A DNA stretch of 64,000 nt from Dehalococcoidia bacterium (GTDB lineage: Bacteria > Chloroflexota > Dehalococcoidia > DSTF01 > JACRBR01), in the NCBI GenBank assembly GCA_021731085.1, contig JAKFYB010000004.1, forward strand, positions 1-64,000, written 5' to 3'. A program made the position numbers and the translations under genes. Positions 788 through 20,149 of this stretch are shown in pieces (positions within the stretch are counted from its first letter, which is position 1; the number at the start of each line of letters is the position of its first letter). The notes under the pieces are model-generated. The model saw only the letters and a list, made by a program, of their open reading frames with translations. It ran no database searches and was not told the origin of the DNA.

Positions 788-3409
788 ATGCGCTCGGTGT
801 CCAGGAAAACTGCACTACTCATCGCTGCGTTGCTTGCAATCCCGCTCTTCGGCGGCGATGCCGTCAAGGCTACTCCACAACCCGGCTTCATCACGACCAT
901 CGCTGGCGGCGGCGTTGGGGACGGAGATCTTGCGACCAACGCACCTGTCTACGAGGTAGATAGCGTTGTGTCGGAACCTGATGGCAGCTTCCTTCTTCTT
1001 GCAACCGGTTCATGCAGGATTCGATCGGTGGAACAGGGAGTCATCAGCACAACGGTCGGAAATGGATTCTGCGACTTTGATGGCGATGGTGGCCCGGCGC
1101 CGCAAGCCATGGTTGCTCCCAGGGACATTGCTCTCGCGCCTGATGGCGCCCTGATCGTAGCCGACACATTCAACTGCAGAATCCGCCGCGTGCAGGCGGG
1201 CGTCATCGCAACGATCGCCGGCAACGGAACGTGCCAGTCAACAGGTAGCAATGTCGCTGCGCTCACTGCCTCGGTATTCCCCGAGGAGATCACGGTGGAT
1301 CAGTTCGGCACAATATTCTTCGTGGATGCAGCTGAGTGCAAGATCCGCAAGTTGGAAGCGGGCGTGATCAGCGACTTCGCGGGTTCCTCGCCATGTGGAG
1401 TCACGACTGGTGATGGTGGACCTGCGTTGAACGCACGGATCAACACTATTGACGGTATGGCGGCCTATGGCGGAGACCTCTATTTGGCTACCGATTGCGC
1501 TGTCCGAGTGATATCCGGCGGCACAATTCACACGGCGATCGGCAATGGCGAGTGCGTATCCACGGGCGACGGTGGACCAGCAGCCGCCGCTGAGACGACA
1601 GCAAGCGCGCTGGCGTTCACTTCGCAGGGCGACATGATCATCGCTGAGTACCAGTCGTGTCGGATCCGACGAGTGTCGAGTGGCATGATTTCGACAATTG
1701 CAGGAACAGGAATCTGCCAGTTCAATGCACCCGACGGGCCTGCGTTGACGACGCCGTTCATGCCTTCAGATATCACAGTGACCGCGGACGACACAGTTCT
1801 CATCGCTGAGTGGGACGGTTGCCGCGTGCGTGAACTTGGCATTGGTGGCAGCCTACAGACACGCGCAGGAAACGGGACCTGCTCCTTCTATGGTGAAGGC
1901 GGTCCAGCGTTGGAAGCGTCCCTGTTTGTACGTGACCTCGACCTCGGCGTTGGCGATGCAGTTGTCTTCACTGACAGTGACTCCTGCTTGATTCGCAAAT
2001 TCGAAGCCGGCGTGGTCACCACAGTTGCAGGAACGGGCAAGTGCCAGCCATCGGCAGACCACGGCGCACCGCTGGCCACGTCGCTGTACTATCCGTCCGC
2101 CATTGCCATCGCCCCGAATGGGGACATGTATGTAGGCGACCAGGACCCTTGTCGCATCAGAAGGATCACTTCAACAACGGTTGAACCGTTTGCGAATAGC
2201 GGTTGTCACCAGATCGACACGGACGCAGCTGGCAACGTCTACTACGACTTCAATTGTCAGTTGAAAAAGCGCTCGCCCTCCGGCACAGAGGAAACAGTTC
2301 CTGGCGTACAAGCGTGCCACAGCGGCATATTCCTCGTAGCGCCTGATGGGAGCGTGTACTTCACGCCACAATTCAAATGCCAGGTCTTCCGAGCGAAGGC
2401 TGGCGTTGTGACACTCGTGGCTGGCCTCGACCAAGGCAACTCGCCCTGCATCAATGATGGCGACGGTGGAGCCGCAACCAGCGCTCGACTTGGGGGTGTG
2501 TGGGATATCGCGATCGACGCGGTTGGGAATATGTATCTCTCGGTTCTTGGAGATGAAGACTGCGCAATCAGGCGAATTCGACAAGGCGTCATTGAGCGCG
2601 TCGCTGGCGATGGGTACTGCTACGCGCCGCAGGGTGACGACGGGCCAGCGCTGGAAGCGTCAATCACCGGTGCTGCGAGAATCCTAGTTACACCCGACTA
2701 TCGCGTACTGGTAGGTGATGTCAACCGTCTTCGCCAGATCGAACCGGACGATAGTGATGGTGACGGTGTCATCGGCGCCACGGACAATTGCATTGCAGTA
2801 GCAAACATCGATCAACTCAACACGGATCGCAACTACGTCGACCAGAGCCCGCCCTTCAGCGCCGCAGTCGATGACAAGAGCGTGGCCAACTCAGATAACG
2901 CTGGGGATGCCTGCGACTCTGACGACGATAACGACGGGCTCTCCGACGCCGATGAAGTAGCCGGAACGGCGTGCACGACCGTTACCACAAACCCGCTGTT
3001 GGGCGACACCGACGGCGATCGCTTTCTTGACGGTGCTGAGTGTTCACTGGGCACCGATCCAACCGCGTCCACAAGCAAGCCGCCCGTGAGCGCGTGCGGC
3101 GCGACGACCGACACAGACGGCGATCGGCTTGTCGCGCGTGTCGAGATATGTTTCTACGGAACTGATCCGACCAAGAGTGACACCGATGGTGATAGGGCCG
3201 TCGACGGCGCGAAGGACGGCTGTGAAGCAGCATCGTTTAACGGAGACCGCATAGTGAACGTCGCCGACATGGGTATGCTCGCTTCGGCGATCGTCGACGT
3301 GACAAAGCACCACGTGAACATCGACGTGAACAAGGACGGCGTCTGGAATCCCGCCGATCAGGGCCTAGTTGCCAGCTTCATTTCGCCGGCAGGTCAGTGT
3401 CCCGGCTAG
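788..3409 (+). CDS. Secreted NHL-repeat beta-propeller protein with Ca-binding and dockerin-like C-terminus
   Basis: An 873-residue exported protein of unknown ligand. A signal peptide (RKTALLIAALLAIPLFG) is followed by about ten NHL-like repeats of the form ISTIAGNG..CR(I/V)R, typical of a six-to-eight-bladed propeller, to about residue 650. The last ~215 residues carry thrombospondin-3-like aspartate repeats (DSDGDG, DDDNDGLSDADE, DTDGDR) and end in a dockerin-like pair (NGDRIVNVADMG and VNKDGVWNPADQG). That C-terminal block is nearly the same as in the following gene. GGAGGA abuts the ATG at 788; a GTG at 797 sits 9 nt from it and could be the true start, still leaving a full signal peptide. 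Role is inferred as an extracellular structural or binding protein. Confidence 0.85.
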   Translation: MRSVSRKTALLIAALLAIPLFGGDAVKATPQPGFITTIAGGGVGDGDLATNAPVYEVDSVVSEPDGSFLLLATGSCRIRSVEQGVISTTVGNGFCDFDGDGGPAPQAMVAPRDIALAPDGALIVADTFNCRIRRVQAGVIATIAGNGTCQSTGSNVAALTASVFPEEITVDQFGTIFFVDAAECKIRKLEAGVISDFAGSSPCGVTTGDGGPALNARINTIDGMAAYGGDLYLATDCAVRVISGGTIHTAIGNGECVSTGDGGPAAAAETTASALAFTSQGDMIIAEYQSCRIRRVSSGMISTIAGTGICQFNAPDGPALTTPFMPSDITVTADDTVLIAEWDGCRVRELGIGGSLQTRAGNGTCSFYGEGGPALEASLFVRDLDLGVGDAVVFTDSDSCLIRKFEAGVVTTVAGTGKCQPSADHGAPLATSLYYPSAIAIAPNGDMYVGDQDPCRIRRITSTTVEPFANSGCHQIDTDAAGNVYYDFNCQLKKRSPSGTEETVPGVQACHSGIFLVAPDGSVYFTPQFKCQVFRAKAGVVTLVAGLDQGNSPCINDGDGGAATSARLGGVWDIAIDAVGNMYLSVLGDEDCAIRRIRQGVIERVAGDGYCYAPQGDDGPALEASITGAARILVTPDYRVLVGDVNRLRQIEPDDSDGDGVIGATDNCIAVANIDQLNTDRNYVDQSPPFSAAVDDKSVANSDNAGDACDSDDDNDGLSDADEVAGTACTTVTTNPLLGDTDGDRFLDGAECSLGTDPTASTSKPPVSACGATTDTDGDRLVARVEICFYGTDPTKSDTDGDRAVDGAKDGCEAASFNGDRIVNVADMGMLASAIVDVTKHHVNIDVNKDGVWNPADQGLVASFISPAGQCPG

Positions 3410-3430: not shown

Positions 3431-3519
3431 CAGGGCGCAGGCTTCATGAGTGGTTGCACCCCGGGCTAGGCAACCCGCGAGCCTTTTGACAATTTGTCGA
3501 CCGGTCTCGCGGGATGGCG

Positions 3520-3525
3520 TATGAT
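3520..3525 (+). promoter_or_regulatory. -10 element TATGAT for a leaderless start at 3532
   Basis: TATGAT ends exactly 6 nt before the ATG at 3532, which would place transcription start on the start codon. A TTGACA lies at 3486-3491, but the 28-bp gap is too long for it to pair with this -10. Confidence 0.5.
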
Positions 3526-3531
3526 CCACCG

Positions 3532-5544
3532 ATGCCGCGAACAGCAATACTGTGCTCCCTGATCGCCATTCTCCTTGTCGTGGGTGCTGGCACGACGCTT
3601 GCCGAACAAGGTGGCCCTACAGAGTTGATCACCATTTCTAGCACAGGCGTGCAGGCAAACAGCTTCGGTGACCTGGCCAAGATCAGTGATGATGGAAGGT
3701 ACGTGGTCTTTCAGTCCGAAGCCACCAATCTGGTCGCTGGGGATAACAATGGGCAGCGAGACGTCTTCATACGCGATCGTCAACTTGGCACGACCGAATT
3801 GGTGAGCATCTCGAGTATCGGCACCCAGGGAAATGGCTGGAGCGAGGAAGCCACAATTAGTGGGGATGGCCGCTACATTGCCTTCCAATCCGACGCCACC
3901 AATCTTGTCGCGATGGACACGAACCTCGCCACCGATATCTTCCTGCGAGATCGCGTGGCTGGTACGAGTGCGCGGCTCAGCGTCTCCGTGACCGGCACCC
4001 AAGCCAACAACTGGAGTCGACAACCAAGCATCAGTGCGGATGGCAACATCATTGCCTTCACGTCCTTCGCGTCCAACCTTCACCCTGGCGATACAAGTGT
4101 GGGTGGTGACGTATATGTACGCGATGTCGCCGCGGGATCGACTGAACTCACAAGCGTGTCGAGTGCCGGCGTGAAGGGGAATTTCGAGAGTGGCGGCGCA
4201 GGAAGCGTGAGTGGCGATGGTCGCTTTGTGGCTTTCAGTTCTGGTGCCTCTAACCTTGTCTCCGGCGACACAAACACGGATGAAGACGTCTTCGTCAGAG
4301 ATCGTCTCTCGGGCACGACGGAGCGGCTGAGTATCTCGACGCTTGGTGGCCAAGGGAACGGAAATAGTGGTAGCCCCTCAATCAGTCCTGACGGGAGCCA
4401 TGTCGCGTTTGTGTCAGATGCGGACAACCTTGTTGTTGACGACACAAATGAAGTTATCGACGTATTTGTGAGAGATCGAGTAATTGGAGCGACCGAGCGG
4501 GCGAGCGTGTCAGCAACCGACGTGCAAGGGAACGCTAGCAGTCTTGAAACGAGCATAAGTGAGGGTGGTAGGTACGTGGCGTTTCGTTCGTCTTCGTCCA
4601 ACCTCATCCCGGGCGACACGAATGGGACGCTCGACATCTTCGTCCGTGACCTGACGTCCGACACCGTTTCCAGGATTAGCGTCTCTAGCAGCGGTGTACA
4701 GGCCAATCAGCTCAGCCTATCTCCCGACATTACAGCTGACGGACGATTCGTAGCGTTCACGTCCGGCGCCACGAATTTCACACCAAATGACGTCGGCAAC
4801 TGGGATGTGTTTGTTCATGAAAGATGTCTTGGCCGCCTAGACGACCTTGACGCTGACTGCAACGCGGATGTGGCAGCATCGATTCATCAGGCGCCCGCGA
4901 ACACTAACTTCTCGGTCGACAACTGCCCTTCTATCACCAACGCATTTCAAGCTAATGGAGATGGCAACTATCTGGATCACAGCCCTCCGTACAGTCAGAG
5001 TATCGACGACAAGACGCTGCCGTACTCCGATGCTACTGGCGACGCTTGCGATGAGGATCGAGACAATGACGGGCTCGTAGACGCAGACGAAGCCGATGGT
5101 GGCACAGCCTGTGCGGCGATCACCAACCCGCTCCTACGCGACACCGACGCCGACCGATTCCTTGATGGCGCAGAGTGCGCGCTCGGCTCGGACCCAACAT
5201 CATCCGCGAGCAAGCCGCTGATAACGGCGTGCGGTAGCACGTCGGACGCGGACGGAGACAAACTTACGGAGCGCATCGAAATCTGCTTCTATGGGACCGA
5301 CCCCAATAACAACGACACTGACGGCGACAAGGCGTTCGATGGCGGGAAGGATGGGTGCGAAGCGGTGTCCTTGAACCATGACCGCATCGTGAATGTCGCA
5401 GACATGGGCATGCTGGCCTCGGCGATCTCGAACATCGCTTTCCGAGTCGTGAGCGTGGACGTCAACAAGGATGGAGTCTGGAATCCCGCCGACCAGGGCA
5501 TGGTCGCGAGCTTCATCTCGCCCTCGGGGCAATGCCCTGGGTGA
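3532..5544 (+). CDS. Secreted TolB/PD40-repeat beta-propeller with dockerin-like C-terminus
   Basis: A 670-residue exported protein. The start at 3532 gives a clean signal peptide (MPRTAILCSLIAILLVVGAGTTLA); an in-frame ATG at 3514 lies upstream but has no ribosome site and sits inside the putative promoter. Residues ~30-430 are seven repeats with the signature ISDDGRYVVFQSEATNLV..D.N...DVFIRDR, that is, PD40 blades of a TolB-type propeller. The final ~215 residues match the C-terminus of the preceding NHL protein: aspartate-rich calcium repeats, then DRIVNVADMGMLASAI and VNKDGVWNPADQG. The two genes look like different propellers grafted on a shared surface-targeting or calcium-binding module. 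Ligand unknown. Confidence 0.85.
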   Translation: MPRTAILCSLIAILLVVGAGTTLAEQGGPTELITISSTGVQANSFGDLAKISDDGRYVVFQSEATNLVAGDNNGQRDVFIRDRQLGTTELVSISSIGTQGNGWSEEATISGDGRYIAFQSDATNLVAMDTNLATDIFLRDRVAGTSARLSVSVTGTQANNWSRQPSISADGNIIAFTSFASNLHPGDTSVGGDVYVRDVAAGSTELTSVSSAGVKGNFESGGAGSVSGDGRFVAFSSGASNLVSGDTNTDEDVFVRDRLSGTTERLSISTLGGQGNGNSGSPSISPDGSHVAFVSDADNLVVDDTNEVIDVFVRDRVIGATERASVSATDVQGNASSLETSISEGGRYVAFRSSSSNLIPGDTNGTLDIFVRDLTSDTVSRISVSSSGVQANQLSLSPDITADGRFVAFTSGATNFTPNDVGNWDVFVHERCLGRLDDLDADCNADVAASIHQAPANTNFSVDNCPSITNAFQANGDGNYLDHSPPYSQSIDDKTLPYSDATGDACDEDRDNDGLVDADEADGGTACAAITNPLLRDTDADRFLDGAECALGSDPTSSASKPLITACGSTSDADGDKLTERIEICFYGTDPNNNDTDGDKAFDGGKDGCEAVSLNHDRIVNVADMGMLASAISNIAFRVVSVDVNKDGVWNPADQGMVASFISPSGQCPG

Positions 5545-9358: not shown

Positions 9359-9577
9359 GCGTACCTCCAGTCCCATGTTACTCGAAGAGCCCTCGCGGAC
9401 TCAGGCGGGCATGGCGACGGCGACCGGGCGGTTGTGCGGCGTTGGGCGGCCCGGTGCCGTCTGTGGCGCCTGTCCGGCATTAGATTCGAAGATCCATGCA
9501 TTGCGCGGTCTGGCGCATGCACCACAACGAGAGCAGGCCGCCGAAGCGACCCGTCTCGGGCTCAGGTGCGGGAGGTG

Positions 9578-9997
9578 TTACTGAGCGGTGTGCATCAGCG
9601 CGTGCTCGGTCGCCGCCTTCATCGTCGGGAACTCCTGGCCGCAGGCGCCGCAGCCGAACGAACCGCCGCTCTCCGTCTTCGCGGCCTTCTTCTTCGGCGC
9701 GCTCTTCTTCGCCGCCTTCTTGGCGGGCGCCTTCTTCGTCGCTGGCTTCTTCGCGGCCTTCGGCTTCGGCTCGCGCGCGGTCTTGAGGTCGCCGTCCAGG
9801 CTCCAGAACCGCCAGCCGTTCGCCGCGATCCCGCCCATCACCGCCTTCGCCGCGGAACTTGGGCTCTTGTAGTCCGTCCCCGCGACCCGGTAGCGCAGGC
9901 CCTCCTCCGTCTCCATCACCACGCAGGTGTGGTCCTCCTTCTTGTACCGCGCGACCAGCACGGTCCCCGGCGCTAGTTCCCTGTTCTCGAGTGGCAT
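9578..9997 (-). CDS. RAMA/DUF4357-type domain fused to an H1-like lysine tail and a C2H2 finger
   Basis: A 139-residue protein with three parts. Residues ~10-70 (LVARYKKEDHTCVVMETEEGLRYRVAGTDYKSPSSAAKAVMGG..NGWRFWSLDG) match the RAMA/DUF4357 fold found beside restriction enzymes and DNA methylases and proposed to read DNA. Residues ~75-110 are Lys/Ala/Pro repeats (KKAPAKKAAKKSAPKKKAAK) like a histone H1 tail. The end, CGACGQEFPTMKAATEHALMH, is a C2H2 zinc-finger pattern. The start at 9997 has AAGGAG 7 nt upstream. It is transcribed from one arm of the mirrored promoter at 10049-10203, and a DNA methyltransferase lies 1.1 kb away, so a role in sensing methylated DNA is plausible but inferred. 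Confidence 0.75.
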   Translation of the reverse strand: MPLENRELAPGTVLVARYKKEDHTCVVMETEEGLRYRVAGTDYKSPSSAAKAVMGGIAANGWRFWSLDGDLKTAREPKPKAAKKPATKKAPAKKAAKKSAPKKKAAKTESGGSFGCGACGQEFPTMKAATEHALMHTAQ

Positions 9998-10048
9998 GTG
10001 GCATCTCCTTGTGAAAGCCCCGACCAGGGGCGTCTTCGTTGGCGATGC

Positions 10049-10203
10049 CATACATCACTCTGCTCCGCGACGAAGTCAACGGGATGTGGCGAGATTCTTC
10101 GCACCGTCCGGAGAGATTGTTTGGCGGCGTCAACCGTCTGCAGAGATTGTCTCTGCGTGACCGGATTACTCGTTGACTTGGGCGCCGCGCAGAGTGATGT
10201 ATG
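10049..10203. promoter_or_regulatory. Mirrored divergent promoter/operator region
   Basis: A 15-bp perfect inverted repeat (CATACATCACTCTGC at 10049-10063; GCAGAGTGATGTATG at 10189-10203) is followed inward on each side by 9 variable bases and then a 9-bp repeat containing TTGACTT (10073-10081 and 10171-10179). Each arm therefore reads CGTTGACTT-N9-GCAGAGTGATGTATG outward, toward the RAMA gene (left) and the 10222 operon (right). Between the arms lie a CAGAGA-TTG-TCTCTG palindrome (10141-10155) and a second AGAGATTGT near 10111. A shared regulator or identical promoter timing is implied. Confidence 0.7.
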
Positions 10204-10221
10204 TGGGGAAGGGAGAACGAC

Positions 10222-10368
10222 ATGAACAAGAAGCACCTAGCAACGGCGAGCGGCAAACCGAGGACGATGATCTCCACCGCCTGCGGGATCAAGGTTGAGC
10301 GGCGGCTGGCCGTTCTCTTCGCAGAGGACGTGACCTGCCCATACTGCCAAGCGCGAGGACAGCGATGA
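10222..10368 (+). CDS. 48-residue protein with CPYC knuckle
   Basis: First gene of a three-gene cluster behind the mirrored promoter. ATG 10222 has GGGAGA 5 nt upstream. The product is MNKKHLATASGKPRTMIS... ending VTCPYCQARGQR; a lone CxxC plus an upstream Cys could bind metal. Its TGA overlaps the ATG of the next gene (ATGA), indicating coupled translation. Typical of small phage or island genes; function unknown. Confidence 0.6.
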   Translation: MNKKHLATASGKPRTMISTACGIKVERRLAVLFAEDVTCPYCQARGQR

Positions 10369-10586
10369 CGAACACGACGCGCATCGCATTCTCCGAGACG
10401 CACAACGACGCCGGTCTGCTCCGCGAGTACATCGGCCAGCATTTCGCCAACTACTGGCACCAGGGGCTTCCCCTCAACGAGGCGCAGCGCCTTCACCGAT
10501 TGGTCGGACGCTTGGCGCGGCTTGCCCAGCTGCCGGCGGCCGAGGTGTGGCAGGAGCTCGCCGAAGACGCTGAGAACCGGTACTAA
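10365..10586 (+). CDS. Small hypothetical island protein (73 aa)
   Basis: Second gene of the cluster, overlapping its neighbour by 4 nt. Acidic, helical protein (TRIAFSETHNDAGLLREYIGQHFANYWHQGLPLNEAQRLHRLVGRLARLAQLPAAEVWQELAEDAENRY is its character, with a leucine-rich helix in the middle). No family recognised. Tight packing with both neighbours makes it a real gene. Confidence 0.6.
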   Translation: MTNTTRIAFSETHNDAGLLREYIGQHFANYWHQGLPLNEAQRLHRLVGRLARLAQLPAAEVWQELAEDAENRY

Positions 10587-10592
10587 GGAGCG

Positions 10593-10808
10593 ATGACGAT
10601 GATGGCACCGACGATCGAACAGTGGACGACCGACGACGAACGCTGGTGCGAGGTGTGCCAGCAGGACGACAACGATGCGGCGCGGAGCGAGCAGATGCCC
10701 CTCACCGTGCCGACACCCGCCTTCCCCTTCCGTGTTTGCGCCGACTGCGCCGACGAGTGGGACGCGATGGTGACCGATGACGAGCGGCAGTCGCTGGGCC
10801 TTCCCTAG
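10593..10808 (+). CDS. Small zinc-ribbon-like island protein (71 aa)
   Basis: Third gene of the cluster, 6 nt after the previous stop with AGGAG just before its start. Two CxxC pairs, CEVC and CADC, about 40 residues apart form a plausible zinc ribbon; the rest is acidic. Function unknown; possibly a nucleic-acid or protein adaptor of the element. Confidence 0.6.
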   Translation: MTMMAPTIEQWTTDDERWCEVCQQDDNDAARSEQMPLTVPTPAFPFRVCADCADEWDAMVTDDERQSLGLP

Positions 10809-10813
10809 CCGGA

Positions 10814-10987
10814 TCATCGCTTCGCTCCCACGCCGTCGCGCTCGCGGCGGCGTTCCTCGTCCAGCACGAGCGCTTTGACCAACTCGAACAAGCCGGTCTC
10901 CAAGCAGCCTAGGCACTCACCGTCCGACCGTTTGCGGACGTGGACGAGCGATCCACGGGCATCTCTCACGAGTACGAGGTTAGGCAT
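10814..10987 (-). CDS. Small hypothetical protein (57 aa), convergent with the zinc-ribbon gene
   Basis: Open frame from ATG 10987 to TGA 10814-10816, downstream of the methyltransferase on the same strand. Reads MPNLVLVRDARGSLVHVRK..., then ECLGCLETGLFELVKALVLDEERRRERDG. The CLGCL motif plus an amphipathic helix suggests a folded peptide. The upstream AGGGGG is 11 nt from the ATG, so translation signals are weak. Confidence 0.4.
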   Translation of the reverse strand: MPNLVLVRDARGSLVHVRKRSDGECLGCLETGLFELVKALVLDEERRRERDGVGAKR

Positions 10988-11060
10988 GGCGGGTGCTGCC
11001 CCCTATCTTCCGCATCGCCGGTTCACCTTCGGAGTTGGCTGCGCGTTGTACAGACAGAAC

Positions 11061-11119
11061 GAGCGGCGGCGGCTCTTCTCCAAAACCCCAACCACAAAAC
11101 ACCCGGGTTGCCGCCGCTC
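11061..11119 (-). other. Long-loop inverted repeat after the methyltransferase gene
   Basis: GAGCGGCGGC (11061-11070) pairs with GCCGCCGCTC (11110-11119) around a 39-nt loop; the loop is T/G-rich when read on the minus strand. It sits immediately 3' of the methyltransferase stop codon and may act as a transcription terminator. Confidence 0.4.
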
Positions 11120-11122
11120 TCT

Positions 11123-12355
11123 CTACTTCTCAAGGCACACCGCCTCCTTCCCGCTAAAAGCTTCCCACCTGGCCAACACGACGCTCCCATAGTGGGCATC
11201 GAGTTCCATGCCGTAGCAGGCGCGCCCGGTGCGTTCCGCGGCGATCAGCGTGCTGCCTGATCCGAGGAAGAGATCCAGCACCACGTCGCCGGGCCTGGAC
11301 GAGTTCTCGATCGCGCGTTCGACGAGCGGCAACGGCTTCATCGTCGGATGGGCCTCGCTGTCGCCGGGCCGGTCGATCTCCCACACATCGGACTGATTGC
11401 GATCGCCACACCAGTGATGCTTCTGCCCTTCGCGCCAGCCAAACCAGATCGGTTCGTACTGCCGCTGGTAATCGGCTCGCCCCATGACGAAGCGATCCTT
11501 CTTCCAGATGATCGTGTCGGACCAGTGGCCGCCAGCTTCGGCCAATGCCCGCGAGACCGACGGCCATTCTTTCGTGCTCATGCAGATGTAGATCGCACCA
11601 TCGACATTGCTGACGATGTTGTTTGACCAGGCGCGCACGAAGGCTTCCCATTGCTCTGGTGGCATGGCGTCGTTCTGGATGCGCCGCTTGCGTTGGTTCC
11701 TCTGCTGACCGCCGTGATCACCGAGGGCGACGTTGTAAGGAGGATCGGTGAAGCAGAGCGCCGGTCGGATCTCGCCCAACAGCCGCGATATGGCTGCACG
11801 GTCGGTCGCGTCGCCGATGAGGAGGCGGTGGTCGCCCAGCGCCCACAACTCGCCACGTTTGGCGCGTGTGGCGGCACGTGCGGCCTCCAGCGCCTCTTCG
11901 ACGTCGAACGCCTCTGCCTTCTCGCGCTTCTCGCGCAGATTCAGTGACTTCAGCAGCTTGTCGAGTTCGCCAGCCTCGAAGCCAGACAGCGAGAGGTCGA
12001 TCCCATCCACGCCCTGGAGGTCGGCCAGCATATGGGCGAGGAGGTCCTCGTCCCACTCACCGCCGATCCTGTTCAGGGCCATGTTGAGAAGGCGGGACTG
12101 CTCGATCGAGATGTCGAGCCAGATCACGGGCACGGTCTTCATGCCGAGCTTGCGTGCGGCGAGCAGGCGCTGGTGGCCGCCGATGACGGTCCGATCCTCG
12201 CGACGCACGATTACCGGTTGGACGAAGCCCCACTCGCGCAGGCTCCGCGTGAGCGACTCGAGTTCGCGCTCGCCGATGCGGCGCGGGTTGGCCGGGTCGG
12301 GATTGAGATCGTCGATCACGACATGGTCAATGAGCATGCGTGCGTCACCATTCAT
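11123..12355 (-). CDS. ParB/Srx-like domain fused to a beta-type DNA methyltransferase
   Basis: A 410-residue phage-style modification protein. Residues ~8-95 are a ParB-like nuclease domain (DLNPDPANPRRI, VIGGHQRLLAARKLG). Residues ~165-400 are a methyltransferase with the catalytic DPPYN (204-208) before the SAM motif FLGSGST (363-369), the beta-class order seen in N4-cytosine and N6-adenine enzymes. The start at 12355 has GGAGGA 7 nt upstream and overlaps the end of terL by 11 nt. In phages such fusions sit next to terminase genes and are thought to protect the phage genome or mark packaging DNA. No cognate restriction gene is visible, so it is probably an orphan. Confidence 0.9.
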   Translation of the reverse strand: MNGDARMLIDHVVIDDLNPDPANPRRIGERELESLTRSLREWGFVQPVIVRREDRTVIGGHQRLLAARKLGMKTVPVIWLDISIEQSRLLNMALNRIGGEWDEDLLAHMLADLQGVDGIDLSLSGFEAGELDKLLKSLNLREKREKAEAFDVEEALEAARAATRAKRGELWALGDHRLLIGDATDRAAISRLLGEIRPALCFTDPPYNVALGDHGGQQRNQRKRRIQNDAMPPEQWEAFVRAWSNNIVSNVDGAIYICMSTKEWPSVSRALAEAGGHWSDTIIWKKDRFVMGRADYQRQYEPIWFGWREGQKHHWCGDRNQSDVWEIDRPGDSEAHPTMKPLPLVERAIENSSRPGDVVLDLFLGSGSTLIAAERTGRACYGMELDAHYGSVVLARWEAFSGKEAVCLEK

Positions 12356-13901
12356 CTGGGGGTCCTCCCATTCGTACAAAGAACGCGGTTGAGACCGGCT
12401 CTTCCTCGGCGACCATCGCTCGCCCGACCGCCATCGCAAGCGCGACCATGCCGTCCACACGCTCGGTCGACTTTGCCTTGTCGATCTTCAGGTTGCCGGC
12501 GGGGTCCTGGCGGACGGCGACGTTGCTCGCCATCCAGCGCAGGACCGGATGGCCGCCGTGGCGAAGCTTGCGTTCCAGCACGAGCCGTTCGAGTTCCTTG
12601 GTCGGCGCGGTCATCGACGCAAACCCCTGTCCAAACGGCACGACAGTGAGGCCGTCGCCCATCAACTGCGTCTGCAACTGCGTCGAGTTCCAGCGGTCGA
12701 TCGCGATCTCGCGGATGTGGTAGCGGGTCGAGAGCTCAAGGATGTCCTCGCGGATGACGTCGTAGTCCACGACGTTGCCATCGGTCGCCTTAATGCGGCC
12801 GTCCCGCACCCAGACGTCGTAGGGCACACGGTCACGGAAGGCGCGCTTGCGGATGTTCTCCTCCGGTACCCAGAAGAAGGAGAGGACCGAGCCGCCGCCA
12901 TTCTCGTCGGGGAAGTACAGGGTCAGCGCGCTGATGTCGGTCGTCGTCGAGAGGTCGAGCCCGGCGTAGCACTCCTCGCCTTCGAGATCGTCAGGAGATG
13001 TCGCTTCGTCGTTCTCGTCCCAGACGGCCATGTCCAGCCAGCGGTCCGCCTGTTCGGTCCACTGGCAGAGATAGAGGCGACGGAAAGCATTCTGTTGACC
13101 AGGCACTTCCTTTGCCCGCAGGGCCGCGGTGCGCATCTCGTCCAGGCTGCGAAAGTCACCGAGCGCCGGGTTGGCTTCATGCCAGACGGCTTCGTCCAGC
13201 CAGTCCGCGTCGTCGGATGCCGCAAACAGGATGGGCAAGAAACTCGGGTCCTCGATGATGCCGTCGCGCACCTTCACGGCGAAGTCGTGCAGCTCCCAGC
13301 AGATCGAGTTCCGATCCCACCCAGCTGTAGTAATCACGAAGATCAGCGGCTGACGTCGCGCACCGGTCGAGGTGGTCAACACGTCGTAGAGGTCGCGGTT
13401 GGGTGCTGCATGCAGTTCGTCGTAGATCACGCCCGAGGCGTTATAGCCGTGACGGCCCGCCGCTTCGGCGGGGATCGCCCGGTAGACGCTGCCCGACGGC
13501 CGGTGCACGATCGTCTTGCGGCTGTCGACCACCTCGCACACGGAGAGCAATTCGGGATCGTTGCGCACCATCTCGGCGGCGACGCCGAAGACGAGCCCCG
13601 CCTGCTCCCGGTCGACGGCGGCGCTGTAGACCTCGGCGCCGGGCTCGCTGTCGCCCATCAGCATGTAAAGGGCAATGCCGGCGGCCAGTTCGGTCTTGCC
13701 GTTCTTCCTCGGGATCTCCACGTAGCAGGTGCGATAGCGGCGCGTGCCGTTCTCGCGCAGCGTCCCAAAGAGCGGCCGCACGATGTCTTCCTGCCAGGTC
13801 CGCAGTGCGAACGACTGGCCCGCCCACTCGCCCTTGGTGTGGCTCAGGTTGTTGATGAAGCGAACGACGCGTTCGCCGGGGTTCAGAGGAGCCCGGACCA
13901 C
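12345..13901 (-). CDS. terL: Phage terminase large subunit
   Basis: A 518-residue DNA-packaging ATPase/nuclease. Walker A PRKNGKT (64-70), Walker B VIYDE (158-162), coupling-motif region after TTSTGARRQPLIFVITTAG, and a C-terminal RNase H-like nuclease with the acidic CYAGLDLSTT near 320 and DRWNSTQLQ further on. Length and motifs fit the COG4626/YmfN terminase group. It overlaps terS by 19 nt upstream and the methyltransferase downstream, so packaging and modification are expressed together. Intact by inspection. No portal or capsid gene follows, which is unusual for a working prophage. Confidence 0.93.
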   Translation of the reverse strand: MVRAPLNPGERVVRFINNLSHTKGEWAGQSFALRTWQEDIVRPLFGTLRENGTRRYRTCYVEIPRKNGKTELAAGIALYMLMGDSEPGAEVYSAAVDREQAGLVFGVAAEMVRNDPELLSVCEVVDSRKTIVHRPSGSVYRAIPAEAAGRHGYNASGVIYDELHAAPNRDLYDVLTTSTGARRQPLIFVITTAGWDRNSICWELHDFAVKVRDGIIEDPSFLPILFAASDDADWLDEAVWHEANPALGDFRSLDEMRTAALRAKEVPGQQNAFRRLYLCQWTEQADRWLDMAVWDENDEATSPDDLEGEECYAGLDLSTTTDISALTLYFPDENGGGSVLSFFWVPEENIRKRAFRDRVPYDVWVRDGRIKATDGNVVDYDVIREDILELSTRYHIREIAIDRWNSTQLQTQLMGDGLTVVPFGQGFASMTAPTKELERLVLERKLRHGGHPVLRWMASNVAVRQDPAGNLKIDKAKSTERVDGMVALAMAVGRAMVAEEEPVSTAFFVRMGGPPDEW

Positions 13902-14341
13902 TTCGACTCCGCTTCACTGGCGGTTGGGGCGGCGTGGACGCGCGCGCGGCTCGCCGGCGACAGCCCGAATTCCCCCAGGAGCAGCCGGACCTGCTCGGCG
14001 GCCTTGTTGGCGACGGCGAGATATGGAGACTGCACGGGGTAGCCGTTCGGGCTCTTGATGATCGCGCCGTACTTCTTGAGCGACTCCAAGGATTCGATCC
14101 AGCGTCCCCAGGCGTCGCAGTACAACGCGAGCGCGGCGCGGTCGATCGTTGTGAGCAAGCCGAGGACGTGGAGTTCCTTCGTGATCCGCTTCCACTCCTT
14201 CCGCGCCTCGTCGCCAAGTTCTACCGGGCACCGCGGGATGGCAGGTTGGGGCCGTGGCTCGCGGCGATTGATGCGGTCCGCGCGGTCGGTGCCCTTCAGG
14301 AGCTTGAGTCTCGTCGGAACGGGCTTCGCGCCTCGCTGCAT
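13883..14341 (-). CDS. terS: Phage terminase small subunit, P27 family
   Basis: A 152-residue DNA-recognition subunit. N-terminal basic segment TRLKLLKGTDRADRINRREPRP, then the P27-type PAIPRCPVELGDEARKEWKRITKELHVLGLLTTIDRAALALYCDAWGRW, which is the family signature (LL..D..ALA.YC.aW..W). The C-terminus ends in the LL segment that overlaps terL. Located between HNH and terL as in HK97-like packaging modules. Confidence 0.9.
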   Translation of the reverse strand: MQRGAKPVPTRLKLLKGTDRADRINRREPRPQPAIPRCPVELGDEARKEWKRITKELHVLGLLTTIDRAALALYCDAWGRWIESLESLKKYGAIIKSPNGYPVQSPYLAVANKAAEQVRLLLGEFGLSPASRARVHAAPTASEAESKWSGLL

Positions 14342-14359
14342 GCCTACCTCCCCCCTGCC

Positions 14360-14773
14360 CTAATCTGGCAACGCGCGTGTGACGGTAGCCAGCCGCTCCA
14401 CGCCGGCCTGGATGACTGAATTATTGGGCCGCCCCCACCGGCCGTCGATGATCGCCGTCTTGCGCGAGTGATGCCGGTGACACAGGCCGCGCAGGTTGGA
14501 CGCGTCGTCGCTGCCACCGTGCTTGCGCGCAACGATGTGGTCCACGTCGGTTGATCGCTGATTGCAACCGGCTTCGTCCCGACAGATCGGATCGCGCTGC
14601 AGCACAACTGCACGTACGCGTCGCCATGCCGCGCCATAACCCTGCTGTGACGACGAGCCACGCGGGTGTGAGGCGTAGTGCCGGCGTTGCAGGTTGTGCT
14701 TGTCGCAGCGGCCTGACGCCACAAGGCGTGGACAGCCGGGCTCGGGGCAGGGCTTACGCGGCGCGCTAGGCAT
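14360..14773 (-). CDS. HNH endonuclease of the packaging module
   Basis: A 137-residue nuclease. The start at 14773 (MPSAPRKPC) is chosen because GGGAG lies 7 nt upstream; the frame stays open much further without family resemblance. Zinc-like Cys pairs PCPEPGC and CDKH open the protein; the HNH core is DVDHIVARKHGGSDDASNLRGLCHRHHSRKT, preceded by the RDPICR-type Cys segment. HNH proteins beside TerS/TerL stimulate cos cleavage in HK97-like phages; the same role is likely. Its stop is 18 nt before terS. Confidence 0.9.
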   Translation of the reverse strand: MPSAPRKPCPEPGCPRLVASGRCDKHNLQRRHYASHPRGSSSQQGYGAAWRRVRAVVLQRDPICRDEAGCNQRSTDVDHIVARKHGGSDDASNLRGLCHRHHSRKTAIIDGRWGRPNNSVIQAGVERLATVTRALPD

Positions 14774-14999
14774 TGGTCGACTCCCTTCGCGATTCATCAC
14801 CATGCGCAACGGGCGTGCGTCCGTACCGTTGTAGGGAGTGAAGGTTCCCCTTCGTCGAATGCGCCCGGGCTCTCGGCCGAGACGGGCGCATCGTGCTGTC
14901 TCTCTCATTGACAACGGATCGTTGCGTGACCCGGACCGCTTGATACGATCGAAGCAGCTCTCACGTCCAGCCCCCAAGCAAGACGTAGGGAGCCCGTTC

Positions 15000-15034
15000 A
15001 GGGGTCGGCGACTGCGGTTGAGACGCCGACCCCT
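15000..15034 (+). other. Strong hairpin upstream of small membrane gene
   Basis: An 11-bp perfect stem AGGGGTCGGCG / CGCCGACCCCT with a 13-nt loop ends 13 nt before the ATG at 15048. A CCCTTT follows it. Could be a terminator or a leader structure controlling the membrane gene. Confidence 0.5.
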
Positions 15035-15047
15035 CCCTTTGCGAGCC

Positions 15048-15224
15048 ATGATCCACGTAGCAATTGGCTTCTTTGTCGTTTCGCTGACCTTCGCCGCGCT
15101 GTGCGTCGTGTCGTTCGTCGTGCCCGGAGCACCGAGCGTCGACCTGATGTTTGTGTTGGGCACGGGCGTTGATGTGGTCGTCGCCACCGCGCTCGTTCTT
15201 GTGGTCGTGTTGCTGGGGCTGTAG
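15048..15224 (+). CDS. 58-residue two-helix membrane protein (copy 2 of a two-member family)
   Basis: MIHVAIGFFVVSLTFAALCVV, a short GAPSVD loop, then LMFVLGTGVDVVVATAL and VLVVVLLGL. Aligns end to end with the protein at 8172-8345 outside the packaging module. Two membrane helices; no charged residue apart from His3 and two Asp. No clear Shine-Dalgarno sequence; a strong hairpin precedes it. Candidate holin-like or toxin-like peptide by size, but nothing in the sequence proves that. Confidence 0.5.
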   Translation: MIHVAIGFFVVSLTFAALCVVSFVVPGAPSVDLMFVLGTGVDVVVATALVLVVVLLGL

Positions 15225-15253
15225 TCGCACGATTTGGTCGTCGTGTTGCGTTC

Positions 15254-15287
15254 GAGAAAAAGCAAAATGGCCTCCCTATCGGAGGCC
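15254..15287 (-). terminator. Rho-independent terminator reading leftward
   Basis: Stem GGCCTCC / GGAGGCC with a CTATC loop (15269-15287), followed on the minus strand by a T-rich tail (ATTTTGCTTTTT). It would stop minus-strand transcripts arriving from the replication side before they enter the HNH-terS-terL genes. Confidence 0.65.
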
Positions 15288-15667
15288 ACAGTGGGCACAA
15301 CGTCTATGCGGGTCTCGGTCTCTCAGACAAGGATAGCCCACGTACCCGAAAGCTCAATGCTCCGCGGACACGCGAGCGAGGCTTGCCAGGAGTAGTTGCA
15401 TTTCGCTCTCATTCTGTTGGACCTGGTGGGTTCTGATTTGGGCTATCAATCAATCTGGCTACTGCAAAACCTTGACTTCATCCAGCTTCAAAAGTTGCAT
15501 AACAAACGCTCAATTGTTCTAATTAACAGTCGGTACGCGATCCAGGCAGAATTGTCAATGAGGAAGTCCTTGACTTATTGGATCTACTAGTGCTAATTTC
15601 GCGTACGGATTAACGGGTATGTCACACACGCGCCACCCGCTTAGCGCGTCATCCCTTAGCCTTTGAA
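15288..15667. other. AT-rich spacer without convincing gene
   Basis: About 380 bases, visibly richer in A/T than the rest of the element. A 64-codon open frame at 15396-15590 has no ribosome site and atypical codons, so it is not called. The base composition change suggests recently joined DNA. Confidence 0.4.
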
Positions 15668-15739
15668 ATGAAGGTTCTCCTCATGGCAGAACCGAAGATC
15701 GTGGCCGATGCTGATGAGAAAGGCTCGACTAAGGGATGA
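15668..15739 (+). CDS. Tiny ORF (23 aa) overlapping the DUF5678 start
   Basis: MKVLLMAEPKIVADADEKG... ends TGA at 15737-15739, overlapping the ATG of the next gene by 4 nt (ATGA). An internal ATG at 15683 is an equally good start. It may be a leader peptide for coupled translation of the DUF5678/protease pair, or merely an open stretch. Confidence 0.3.
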   Translation: MKVLLMAEPKIVADADEKGSTKG

Positions 15740-16014
15740 CTGCGGCCGTGTGGAACCAAGTGCACTCCGGTAAGGCGAAGGATCTCGACGCCATTTTGCT
15801 GCCTTACCAGCAAGCGACTCGCTACGTGGCCGACAACTACGAGCGGCTTCTTCAAGAGCATCCAGAGCAATGGGTTGCCGTAACCGCCCAAGGTGTCCTA
15901 GCCTCAAGTACGCGACGAGACGCAGTCTCGAGGAAGCTCAAGGCTTCCGGCGCTGAACGGAATAAGGTGTACATTACCTTCTTGACGAAGAAGAAGCAGA
16001 CACTAATACTCTGA
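15736..16014 (+). CDS. DUF5678 domain protein
   Basis: A 92-residue protein. Central segment NYERLLQEHPEQWVAVTAQGVLASSTRRDAVSRKLKASG fits the DUF5678 pattern (a helix, then W-VAV, then a short beta hairpin). The C-terminus NKVYITFLTKKKQTLIL supplies another strand. The stop is 4 nt before the aspartic-protease gene, so the two form a tight pair. Such small DUF5678 proteins commonly precede retropepsin-like proteins; the one may be the substrate, chaperone or inhibitor of the other, which is inference. Confidence 0.75.
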   Translation: MTAAVWNQVHSGKAKDLDAILLPYQQATRYVADNYERLLQEHPEQWVAVTAQGVLASSTRRDAVSRKLKASGAERNKVYITFLTKKKQTLIL

Positions 16015-16018
16015 CCAC

Positions 16019-16576
16019 ATGCTGGTCAGAGGAATCTTCAACGATGGAAGGCCGCATATTAGCGGCCTTCTAGCATTTCCGAGCCTCTGCGGCTTGGAGT
16101 ACATCTCCGTGAACTTTCTGGTTGATAGCGGAGCTGACCGTTCTGTCATCACGGTGAATGAGTACAAGGACTATTTCTCATACCACGACCTGCTGAACTA
16201 TCCGCTGCGCGTGTCAACCGGTTTTGGGGGTGGCATCATTACGCGCCTTGTTCCAGCCCACCTTGCACTCAGGACCGAAGCGGGGAGTTATTTGTTTCAG
16301 CCGCTCATGATAGAAGTGCCCAATCCGAAGAAATTCGACAAGACCCTGCCATCGGTGATGGGTAGGGACATTCTCAATTGCTTCAGCTTGAGAATCGATC
16401 GGACGGACGGCGCCGTGATCTTAGATGAGCCAGCTTACCCACAACTCAGATTCGATTGGATGCTGGAAGGCATGGAAGAAGACGAGTTGTCCGCTGACAT
16501 AGATGGGATGACGATGCAGGAAGCATTGCAGACTGTCAGTACGCCCGAAAATTACCCCCAGCGTGAAAACAAATGA
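16019..16576 (+). CDS. Retropepsin-like aspartic protease
   Basis: A 185-residue single-domain aspartyl protease homologue. Catalytic VDSGA (Asp36) in FLVDSGADRSVIT, flap-like GFGGGIITRLVPA, and the hydrophobic-hydrophobic-Gly motif SVMGRDIL (113-118) near the end of the domain, as in clan AA proteases that act as homodimers. An acidic C-terminal extension (EGMEEDELSADIDG) follows. Starts 4 nt after the DUF5678 gene. Cytoplasmic by sequence. Target unknown; the paired small protein is the natural candidate. Confidence 0.8.
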   Translation: MLVRGIFNDGRPHISGLLAFPSLCGLEYISVNFLVDSGADRSVITVNEYKDYFSYHDLLNYPLRVSTGFGGGIITRLVPAHLALRTEAGSYLFQPLMIEVPNPKKFDKTLPSVMGRDILNCFSLRIDRTDGAVILDEPAYPQLRFDWMLEGMEEDELSADIDGMTMQEALQTVSTPENYPQRENK

Positions 16577-16780
16577 TTTGCGGGCCCGGCTGGTTGGTGG
16601 AGTCTCGTACGGGCTACTACAACCTTCTACGCGCCAACAGGCGGGCTCTGGTTGCTCGTCTTGCACCGGACGCACTGAATGCTCCATGGTCGGGTAACTG
16701 ACTCCGCCAGCTTCTTGTCGCACATGCGACACCTCGGTGCGTGGTCAACCTTCACTCCCTCATCCATTCGTCACCATCCC

Positions 16781-16954
16781 TTCATCCCTTCATCGTGTTC
16801 ATCGTGTTCATCGTGTTCATCGCTTGGCAGCGCCTGCAACCGACCCCTGCCAAGCGTGAAGGCTGCGGCTCGCTTGGCAGCCGCTAGCCTTTAGGCACAC
16901 CGTTGCCAACCGCCAACCGAGATTCGCGCTGTCGCTTGGCAGTCGGTTGGCAAC
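16781..16954. repeat. Iteron-like array beside the primase gene (candidate replication origin)
   Basis: TTCATCGTG occurs three times in tandem (16789-16815) with partial units on either side. It is followed by CGCTTGGCAG at 16821, 16871 and 16933, the same word inverted at 16847-16856, and GGTTGGCAAC at 16945 with its inverse at 16902. The array lies immediately 3' of the primase-helicase gene. Repeated sites next to a replication protein are typical of phage and island origins. Confidence 0.6.
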
Positions 16955-16974
16955 AGGCAGATTGCCTAGCGACG

Positions 16975-18780
16975 TCAGTCCTCCTCGTCCGGAAGCCGAT
17001 AGGACTTCGCCTTGGACTGGCTGTCCTCATCGGCGATGAACTCCAACACCCGGTTGCTCCGAACCAGGTCCCTGATCCGCTCTTTGACCGTGCGTTCTCC
17101 GGCCTGCGTCGCGTTACGCACCACCTCCACGAGCGTCGAACCGCGGACACCATCCGGCCCGGCATGGAAGACAGCCGTCAGCACGTCGTCGTCCGAGACC
17201 TTGCTTGCGGCAGATCGCACCGTGGCGGCAAAGTCGATCCGTTCGCGATCAAAGGAAAGGGTGAGGTCATCGAGGACATCCTCCGCGTCGCGGACCTTCG
17301 TCCACTCGAGAATCAGCATGTCGGGCTTCTTGTCCTTTTCGATGCTGATGCAGAAGCTGAGCCAGCCCGAAAGGACAGTGGAGCCTCGGATACGGTCCGT
17401 CCCGCTGTCGCGTTTGGTCATCGGCGGCTTCTTCCGATCGTGGTGCGCGGCGATGAATGCGCAGCCGTGCTCAGCAATGAGGCGGTCGATGGTCGACGTG
17501 AGGAGGGCCATGTCGCGGGAGTCGTTCTCATCGAGCGTATGAGCGTTGCGCAGGGGATCGAGGATGACCACGTCTGTGCGGGTCTCCACGATCAAGCGTT
17601 CCAGTTCGGCGACTCCGTCGTCTGAGGCAAGATTGAGTTGGGTGAACACCAGGAGGAATCGCGAACGACTCTCCCCCACCGCTCCGTCCCACACCTTCCT
17701 CAGGCGTTTGCGCATCCCTCTTCTTGAACCTTCTAGCGCGACGTAGAGGACCGTGCGTGGTGTGGGAACGGGATACCGCCCGAGAATCGGCGTGCCTTCA
17801 GACAAGCACCGCGTCAGGCGCAACAGGAGGTTCGTCTTACCGATGCCCGTGCTGCCGGCGAGGAAGCCCCTTCCATCGAGCGGCAGAATCGCACCGCCGG
17901 AACCATCGCCGATGACGACGTCGAGGGACTCGTCTTCATCGGCGAGCCATTCGTCGACGGTTCGTGGGGAGTTCGCACCGACGGACGAGGAAGGCGCCCA
18001 CGCAGGCGCACGTCCCGCCAGTTGCTCGAGTTCCGCGGATGTGTTGCCGGCCTCGAACCAATCCTTGATGTCTCCCTTCTCCGGCAGGTTGGGGAGAGTA
18101 AGCACTTTGAGATCCTTTGCTGGGCTGGCCAGGACACGTCCAACCCTGTCCATGAGCGTGCGCCCTGGCTCGTCGTTGTCCGGACATAGGACGACTTCCC
18201 GTCCTGTGAGCGCAGCCAGGGCTTCGCCGAAGTCCTTCTGAGCCGCGCCACCACAAAGGGAGACCGCCAGTAAGCCCTGAGCAACGGCAGCATCCGCGGC
18301 CGGTTCTCCTTCAACGACGTACACGCGCTTCGTGGGGCGCTCGGCTAGCAGGCCGGCGTTGTACAGCGGCAGCTCCGAGAGTTTCAGCCCGGACAGGCCG
18401 TCGTCGAAGGAGCCGTTAGGCAGTCGCCACCGGCAGCGCTTCTGGCCGCGACCGTTCTCCTCGCGCCCGTGGATCGCGACAGGCTCTGCGCCATGTGGGT
18501 AGGCCCACTCCTGCACGACCTGCCAAGAACCGCTTGTCGTGTACGCCATCCCTGATTGCTCCCCCAATCCACGAGTGCGAAGGGCTCCGAGAACCGTCGC
18601 CTGGTCACAGCCGGCATGGCAGTACACGACAATGGCCGTTCGATTGCCTTGCTGGACAGAGAAGGAAGGGTTGCGGTCTTCGTGATCGTCTGCCGGGCAG
18701 TGGACATTCACGCCAGACCGGCAGGGGCACCGATCTCTCCCGCAGCGGAGAGCTGCCCGCACGGCGTCGGCGGTGGTCAT
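16975..18780 (-). CDS. Phage-type primase-helicase (CHC2 zinc, TOPRIM, RepA-like ATPase)
   Basis: A 601-residue replication protein of the element. A CHC2-like zinc module (CPC at 18-20, then HCPADDHEDRNPSFSV, VYCHAGC) is followed by TOPRIM residues VEGEP (156-160) and DNDEPG (201-206), then a RecA-like ATPase with Walker A AGSTGIGKTN (308-317) and the Walker B-like VVILDPLRN. The end (LRDLVRSN..LEFIADED) resembles a winged helix. This DnaG-RepA combination primes and unwinds DNA in phages and islands. Directly downstream of the HTH gene (5 nt) and next to the iteron-like array. Confidence 0.9.
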   Translation of the reverse strand: MTTADAVRAALRCGRDRCPCRSGVNVHCPADDHEDRNPSFSVQQGNRTAIVVYCHAGCDQATVLGALRTRGLGEQSGMAYTTSGSWQVVQEWAYPHGAEPVAIHGREENGRGQKRCRWRLPNGSFDDGLSGLKLSELPLYNAGLLAERPTKRVYVVEGEPAADAAVAQGLLAVSLCGGAAQKDFGEALAALTGREVVLCPDNDEPGRTLMDRVGRVLASPAKDLKVLTLPNLPEKGDIKDWFEAGNTSAELEQLAGRAPAWAPSSSVGANSPRTVDEWLADEDESLDVVIGDGSGGAILPLDGRGFLAGSTGIGKTNLLLRLTRCLSEGTPILGRYPVPTPRTVLYVALEGSRRGMRKRLRKVWDGAVGESRSRFLLVFTQLNLASDDGVAELERLIVETRTDVVILDPLRNAHTLDENDSRDMALLTSTIDRLIAEHGCAFIAAHHDRKKPPMTKRDSGTDRIRGSTVLSGWLSFCISIEKDKKPDMLILEWTKVRDAEDVLDDLTLSFDRERIDFAATVRSAASKVSDDDVLTAVFHAGPDGVRGSTLVEVVRNATQAGERTVKERIRDLVRSNRVLEFIADEDSQSKAKSYRLPDEED

Positions 18781-18785
18781 CGCCT

Positions 18786-18977
18786 TCAGTCGAGGTCCTC
18801 GGCCGACTCCCGCAGGCGAAGGACGAACTCCTCGACGTCCGCCACGGCGACGCGCCTGGACCCGCCGATCTTTACCGAACGGAGCTCACCACGACGAATG
18901 AGTTGGTAGGTGAACGATCTGCCGAGCCCGATTCGTCGAGCAGCTTCGCTCACCTTCAGTAGCAGTACCTCAGACAT
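18786..18977 (-). CDS. Excisionase-like helix-turn-helix protein
   Basis: A 63-residue MerR/HTH_17-type DNA-binding protein: LLLKVSEAARRIGLGRSFTYQLIRRGELRSVKIGGSRRVAVADVEEFV, which covers the HTH plus the wing. The start at 18977 has GGAGGT 3 nt upstream. First gene of the leftward replication operon, ending 5 nt before the primase start. By size and place it could be the excisionase or a regulator of the operator region at 19027-19079. Confidence 0.8.
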   Translation of the reverse strand: MSEVLLLKVSEAARRIGLGRSFTYQLIRRGELRSVKIGGSRRVAVADVEEFVLRLRESAEDLD

Positions 18978-19026
18978 GTCACCTCCGCCGTCCCGAAAGA
19001 ACAAAGGTTCGCTGGTGTCCATTCTG

Positions 19027-19079
19027 GGCCGTTGACGGCCGGGTTGGCTAGGCTTATAGTCCTAGTTACATTCCTAGTT
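19027..19079. promoter_or_regulatory. Control region between the HTH/primase operon and a rightward gene
   Basis: A GGCCGT-TG-ACGGCC palindrome (19027-19040) lies just upstream of the HTH gene. Two direct TCCTAGTT repeats 12 nt apart (19060-19067, 19072-19079) cover the -35 area of a leftward TATAAG element at about 19053-19058. The arrangement is that of an operator for a repressor or excisionase. Confidence 0.5.
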
Positions 19080-19159
19080 CTGGGGAGGCACGCCCGATTG
19101 TCGCAAAGGTTCACATCCACCCAATCAGGGAGCGACTGGCCTACGCCGGGGTCGAAGTC

Positions 19160-20137
19160 ATGAATCCAGGCTTTGCTCCCCGCGTTCGTCACAGGCTTCT
19201 AATTCCAGAGGACGTCCGTTTCGTGCGTGAGGTGAACACCACAGAACGCGAACAAGCAAGGCGTTACGTGCCGCCCGTTTGGGACGCGGCCGGGGAGCCG
19301 GACCACCTCGTCTGGCGGAGTGTTCTTGCCCGTGATGTCGACCCTGATGAGACGCTCCATTGTCTGTGGGAGTACGTACGACTCCCTGAGAACCCCACAG
19401 AGCGAATTCCCAAGTTTGTGCAAACGTGGGGACTCCTGGAATGGGGACCGGGATCGGAGTTGGCCGAGAGCGAGAAGGAGCAGGGCTTTGCAGAATGGAT
19501 CGAAGCGGCTGAAGAGGCCGAGCGGTTACTGAGGGCGTTTGTCATGACGGAGCAAGGCGACCTTGTTCCCGAGGATCTGTTGTGGGACCTCCGCGAGGGC
19601 GATCGCCGGCAGTACTACTCCTACGACGAGGAGTATGGCGTGAGACCCATTTCCCAAGAAGAGATCCAAATCCTCCGGGTCAGTCGCCAACGAGACTACT
19701 TCGACACAGAGCGTCGCGCTGGACGAGGCCTCGCCCTGCAACGCGCGCTGATCGTGAACCTCCTCGGAGAGATAGTCATGCCGCCTGAGAATAGGTCGTG
19801 GGGCGACGAAAGGACCGTCCAAGGCGAACCGGCAGTTCCGCTCCTGTTTGGCTACACATGGGATGATCGCGGTCGACGTGTCGAAGCCCGTGCGTCCGGT
19901 GTGCGCGAGATTGTTGCTTCGCACCTCCTCTCGATTTTCGCCAGTTCGCAGCCCGACGTGTTTATTTGCTCGGTTTGTGGCAGGCCATTTTCGACCGAGT
20001 CCGCGCAGACACTTCGTCGACCGCGCGCGGGCGTGAGGAGGCTCTGCAGCGAAGCCTGCCGAATCGCGGCAAAACGGGAGAGCAATCGTGCTTCGTGGAA
20101 CAAGAACAAGGACCGATGGCGACCATCCCGTGGGTAG
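19160..20137 (+). CDS. Island protein with C-terminal four-cysteine zinc finger
   Basis: A 325-residue protein of unknown function. The N-terminal ~250 residues are acidic and rich in Trp and Tyr with no motif I recognise. The C-terminus FICSVCGRPFSTES...RRLCSEACRIAAKRESNR is a CGNR-like zinc finger with a basic helix. It lies between the element control region and the integrase, 12 nt before the integrase GTG, and is probably co-transcribed with it. Abi- or regulator-type roles are possible but unsupported. Confidence 0.65.
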   Translation: MNPGFAPRVRHRLLIPEDVRFVREVNTTEREQARRYVPPVWDAAGEPDHLVWRSVLARDVDPDETLHCLWEYVRLPENPTERIPKFVQTWGLLEWGPGSELAESEKEQGFAEWIEAAEEAERLLRAFVMTEQGDLVPEDLLWDLREGDRRQYYSYDEEYGVRPISQEEIQILRVSRQRDYFDTERRAGRGLALQRALIVNLLGEIVMPPENRSWGDERTVQGEPAVPLLFGYTWDDRGRRVEARASGVREIVASHLLSIFASSQPDVFICSVCGRPFSTESAQTLRRPRAGVRRLCSEACRIAAKRESNRASWNKNKDRWRPSRG

Positions 20138-20149
20138 AGGAGGCAAAGG

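Follow-up and report, generated by a model that had tools for sequence, protein, structure and literature searches.

A promoter-like motif, mirrored beside a RAMA-like gene, recurs ahead of accessory genes in a clade of phages

A mobile element in a Dehalococcoidia genome carries two copies of one sequence that point away from each other, and a preliminary description read them as divergent promoters, suggesting a shared activator or a phage-specific polymerase/sigma site. The question raised by this locus is whether the arms are promoters and, if so, what would recognise them. In the window, meaning the whole stretch of 64,000 nucleotides that was analysed, CGTTGACTT-N9-GCAGAGTGATGTATG was found exactly twice, both times facing outward as had been described, and shuffled sequences gave no match even with three mismatches (chance expectation, 0). 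The two arms are identical at all 24 fixed bases and form a 33-nt inverted repeat that is 88% complementary, with 89 nt between them (Table 1). A ribosome-binding site and a start codon come after each arm, and the gene positions agree with the earlier statement that one arm, here the left, faces the RAMA/zinc-finger gene and the other, on the right, three small ORFs. It was noted that the protein of the former gene matched DUF2924 above the cut-off and RAMA at 31.2 bits, slightly under the cut-off of 35.2, and that its zinc finger was read from the sequence.

Table 1. Mirrored arms, intervening repeats and neighbouring genes of the element, with positions in the window.
Feature	Position	Strand	Remark
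Gene with DUF2924/RAMA-like domain and C-terminal C2H2-like zinc finger, 139 aa	9578..9997	-	behind left arm
Left arm, promoter-like motif facing left	10049..10081	-	core TTGACTT-N11-AGAGTGATGTAT at 10050-10079
Direct repeat 1, ACCGTCCGGAGAGATTGT, operator-like	10103..10120	+	conserved in genome copies; one copy also in L018
Direct repeat 2, ACCGTCTGCAGAGATTGT, operator-like	10133..10150	+	holds most of palindrome 10141-10155
Right arm, promoter-like motif facing right	10171..10203	+	core at 10173-10202
First small ORF, 48 aa, CxxC	10222..10368	+	heads three-ORF operon behind right arm; homologues in L009 and L010
Second small ORF, 73 aa	10365..10586	+	no family match
Third small ORF, 71 aa, two CxxC pairs	10593..10808	+	behind right arm
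ParB_N and N6/N4 DNA methyltransferase	11123..12460	-	relatives in 29/30 motif-bearing virus records
Terminase large subunit, phage-clade marker	12345..13901	-	sequence comparison
Terminase small subunit (Terminase_4)	13883..14341	-	family match
HNH endonuclease ORF	14360..15298	-	window element

We assessed the arms against the features of sigma-70 promoters. The TTGACA-like TTGACT lies 17 bp from GATGTA, which is the canonical sigma-70 geometry, and the spacer is rigid. At the -10 position, GATGTA/ATGTAT is unlike TATAAT, the conserved block is the 12-mer AGAGTGATNWAT, and a standard sigma-70 consensus scan of the divergent region found no promoter. Because the -10 mismatches that of sigma-A, the conserved block reaches 12 bases and the scan finds no promoter, a dedicated factor is the simplest reading. 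The earlier description had conserved bases extending well past a -35 and -10; across phages the core is TTGACTT-N11-AGAGTGATGTAT, and the GC before AGAG falls outside it.

Scans of IMG/VR returned 13 stretches with a strict pattern, 42 with a relaxed pattern and 114 with a second relaxed pattern, amounting to well over 100 viral contigs, where chance would give about one to a few (an estimate from 17-18 specified bases and an assumed collection size). The motif sought in related elements is thus not absent from them. Its core was found to be TTGACTT (or TTGCTAT, TTGATAA) - N11 - AGAGTGATNWAT, again with a rigid spacer, and the two bases left free in the pattern were GA in all but one of the tabulated sites. 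The spacer was 11 bases in 92 of 113 distinct AGAGTGATGTAT sites when 6-16 bases were permitted, a gap-tolerant scan being the fairer test of spacing as this set was gathered mostly with 11-base patterns; most apparent exceptions carried TTGCTAT, TTGATAA or TTGACTA at the normal distance. When 80 loci were sampled independently by terminase match, 24 of them held 32 matches in all, compared to about one in reversed or shuffled controls, and this sample broadened the core to AGAGTGAT[GAT][TA]AT. With an iterated weight matrix, the window arms were among the top scorers. The literature covered, which left most subscription journals outside the search, yielded no account of the motif, and an exact-sequence search returned human, animal and fish papers that appeared unrelated. 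The main text of the paper that defines Ca. Heliusvirales, the phage group considered below, never uses the word "promoter" (PMC9226167).

Three further copies of the divergent region were encountered in the host genome (L008, L009 and L010) and another in a second Chloroflexi MAG (L018). Within the host genome, the 15-mer occurs in three places as this outward pair, and in a fourth, on contig C3, one arm has a single mismatch and the other is more altered. L008 (C15) and L009 (C43) share 84-91% identity with the window across the RAMA gene, the divergent region and the methyltransferase, and L010 (C3) shares 79-84% across the RAMA gene and the small ORFs; both arms of L010 have GATGAATG in place of GATGTATG. 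When the three closest genomic copies were aligned, none of the 48 arm columns varied, compared to 21 of 113 other intergenic columns (Fisher p = 5e-4) and 13 of 18 spacer columns (Fisher p = 4e-10). The genes downstream of the right arm differ between copies, with unrelated ORFs in L008 and L018, and L018 keeps the mirrored arms and one direct repeat with a gap of 53 bp rather than 94 bp. The motif is confined to the element copies within the host genome and was not found in 59 related genomes. It was noted that the outward pair is seen in the Chloroflexota copies only, while phage loci are usually co-directional.

Between the arms, ACCGTCYGSAGAGATTGT is repeated directly at 10103 and 10133 with a 30-bp period, and both repeats are kept among the genome copies. 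Their position, upstream of each of the two arms, suggests an operator that both would share. The palindrome CAGAGA-TTG-TCTCTG (CAGAGATTGTCTCTG) reported in the preliminary description is present at 10141-10155, but it is intact in the window copy only and is not conserved, as all three other genome copies are broken, two at several positions and the third at the last base.

We further examined where the motif lies relative to genes. Among the distinct sites, 220 of 233 were just upstream of a ribosome-binding site and ORF, compared to 29% at random positions, and the distance from motif to start codon had a median of 33 nt and a minimum of 18 nt. The genes that follow are diverse, including amidoligase, large serine recombinase, Tn916-type integrase, RadC, Nmad4, GGCT, DUF4314, RAMA and others. 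Loci of at least 10 kb contained 0-6 sites each, often one per gene and usually co-directional. The four sites of PV036453 are ahead of a recombinase, an amidoligase and two hypothetical genes located between those for methyltransferase and terminase, and PV036415 is similar. Six loci (L120, L124, L097, L108, L042 and L189) carry series of 4-6 co-directional copies, spaced a few hundred bases to a few kb apart, with many of the copies directly before separate small genes.

From these comparisons, we regard it as probable that the arms are divergent copies of a promoter class that is specific to a phage clade and needs a dedicated factor. The proposal that these are divergent promoters recognised through a phage-specific sequence gains good comparative support from the more than 100 viral contigs, the unrelated genes downstream, the rigid spacer, the 17-bp geometry and the absence of the motif from the rest of the host genome. 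We infer promoter function, the need for a dedicated factor and the role of the direct repeats from sequence comparison. TTGACTT would serve as the -35, and AGAGTGATGTAT, at the canonical 17-bp spacing, would span the -10 position together with the flank upstream of it. At this non-sigma-A -10, RNA polymerase would be helped by a dedicated factor that the phage probably encodes. The left copy would drive the RAMA/zinc-finger gene and the right copy the small accessory operon. The direct repeats, at about -66/-96 from either predicted start, may be a shared operator.

The arms could instead be promoters of the usual host sigma-A type whose -10 is poor. The extra conserved bases would then be an operator at which a phage repressor, or the ParB-methyltransferase, silences these accessory genes in the lysogen. 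The canonical TTGACT and 17-bp spacer and the methyltransferase relative in 29 of 30 carriers agree with this, and TTGACTT by itself could recruit sigma-A with a weak -10. We nevertheless consider it unlikely: GATGTA/ATGTAT is a poor -10 at which the scan finds no promoter, a repressor site would not need a rigid 11-nt distance to the -35, and the conserved 12-mer is non-palindromic.

It is more doubtful still that the motif is a structured leader RNA, in which the variable spacer pairs with the region close to the ribosome-binding site, leaving the conserved 12-mer in the loop. Pairing between spacer and leader was found in 7 of 100 non-redundant sites at p<=0.01 and in 15 of 100 at p<=0.05, but it is missing at most sites, the window arms reach at most 5-6 pairs, there was no Rfam match, and transcription would have to start upstream of TTGACTT. 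Terminal inverted repeats of a MITE, or an attachment or packaging site, would account for 33-nt inverted repeats 89 nt apart that are present in several copies in one genome. However, homology between the copies runs past the arms, the copies being parts of longer elements; the phage motif is usually single or co-directional, with at most six per locus, and faces gene starts; and L018 keeps both arms despite the shortening of the gap from 94 to 53 bp. We therefore give this explanation hardly any credence. As a separate observation, spacers with complementarity to leader sequence close to the ribosome-binding site were encountered at L026 13130, L027 6110, L073 2590, L063 1302 and 2095, and L124 11335. 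These are a minority of phage sites, their sequences differ by lineage, and the complementarity hints at an added RNA/hairpin or operator layer at those sites.

For the probable promoter class, an intriguing question is which factor would act on it. We examined 30 carrier records, picked from motif matches with long contigs mostly favoured. A relative of the ParB-methyltransferase was found in 29, a terminase of the window type in 28 and a phrog_36 match in 28. By their common terminase and ParB-methyltransferase, nearly all of the sampled carriers belong with the phi-m46.1 / Ca. Heliusvirales branch. The large terminase subunit of the window shares 52.8% identity with that of PV036415 and 46-60% with those of motif-bearing records, and the next groups fall below 40%. 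The leading candidates for the factor, both unproven, are the sigma-region-4-like phrog_36 regulator, whose type would fit the role, and the ParB-methyltransferase. The phrog_36 protein of one phage also matches DUF1492 and Sigma70_r4. Of 14 control genomes, 12 also had phrog_36-type matches, probably owing to the sigma factors of the hosts, so the presence of phrog_36 alone is weak evidence. As a universal factor phrog_36 was rejected: it had no match on the window contig and was also missing from a RAMA-type phage record (G061). The ParB-methyltransferase is a more constant companion of the motif than phrog_36 and might, hypothetically, bind it; their association is strong but may be mere linkage. 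In the terminase-based sample, the motif is correlated with the methyltransferase, with amidoligase and with phrog_36 alike, and gene-content association picks out no single factor because the loci in this sample are incomplete. No evidence points to RAMA as the binder: some phages carry the motif in a region where a RAMA gene could not be recognised.

We also characterized the element itself. Of the clade genes, it retains the methyltransferase, both terminase subunits and the HNH gene. Using the defining gene list of Ca. Heliusviridae (PMC9226167) for comparison, tblastn with PV036415 and phi-m46.1 proteins found no DUF2800, DUF2815, DNA polymerase, VRR-NUC, SNF2 helicase, protease or capsid in the window, L008, L009 or L010. 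One genome holds several related elements (window 9578-21271, L008, L009 and L010) with a packaging module and no portal gene, portal having no family match anywhere in the genome, and these may be either decayed prophages or capsid-less satellites. A plasmid search gave no match. A 13-bp direct repeat at 9532/21231 was rejected as attL/attR, as the right copy falls in integrase codons and is probably due to chance. Two small-terminase genes stand in tandem in each of two other copies (L008 11889-12799 and L009 4-948). Elsewhere in the window, adjacent ORFs at 788-3409 (873 aa) and 3514-5544 (676 aa) have similar Asp-rich C-terminal regions, and sequence similar to these is also present on contig C43 (L009 9690-11431). 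It is tentatively conceivable, though unlikely, that an infecting helper phage switches on these factor-less, capsid-less elements in a satellite-like manner, through the clade's own signal with its non-canonical -10; the hosts of the clade would span several phyla.

In phage T4, sigma appropriation by MotA/AsiA redirects host RNA polymerase to the middle promoters, a phage promoter class in which the -35 is replaced whereas the -10 remains good. Both systems have an unusual element, whereas the window motif has a canonical -35 and an unusual -10 region. We take phrog_36 to group with the Xpf-type, sigma-region-4-like regulators of Bacillus PBSX (DUF1492, ArpU-like). Regulators of this type are encoded by 28 of the 30 carriers, and the window contig has none; the motif is a candidate DNA target for them in these phages. 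In Ltr/RinA-type systems each phage has a single regulator, whose gene lies close to the packaging genes and which activates phage genes (PMC13123087). In S. aureus phi13, P23 has a canonical sigma-A motif, drives the late operon and is preceded by direct repeats that are proposed regulator sites (PMC13123087). The window likewise has direct repeats upstream of the predicted starts, but unlike P23, sites of its type have a non-canonical -10 region and recur before separate accessory genes. The late regulator on the same element, a trait of Ltr/RinA-type systems, is also missing, as judged by phrog_36 on the contig and DUF1492 in the genome. There is also a likeness to the phi-m46.1 / Ca. Heliusvirales phages (PMC9226167; PV036453, PV036415, FM864213), which share the motif, terminase and ParB-methyltransferase with the window element. 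Of their genes, however, this element has only the packaging module and methyltransferase, and its two sites are mirrored rather than co-directional.

The bipartite motif has hardly changed, whereas the proteins that accompany it have diverged to 35-60% identity. Its carriers include viruses of Clostridia-type hosts and of streptococci and elements of a host that is probably of the Chloroflexota, judging by L018. It offers a direct handle on gene control in a widespread group of gut phages, makes the cognate factor searchable, and groups accessory genes about which little is known (amidoligase, RadC, nucleotide-modification domains and RAMA) as one probable regulon. If the reading as a clade-specific promoter class is true, the dedicated factor of this phage clade would control a regulon of separately promoted accessory genes.
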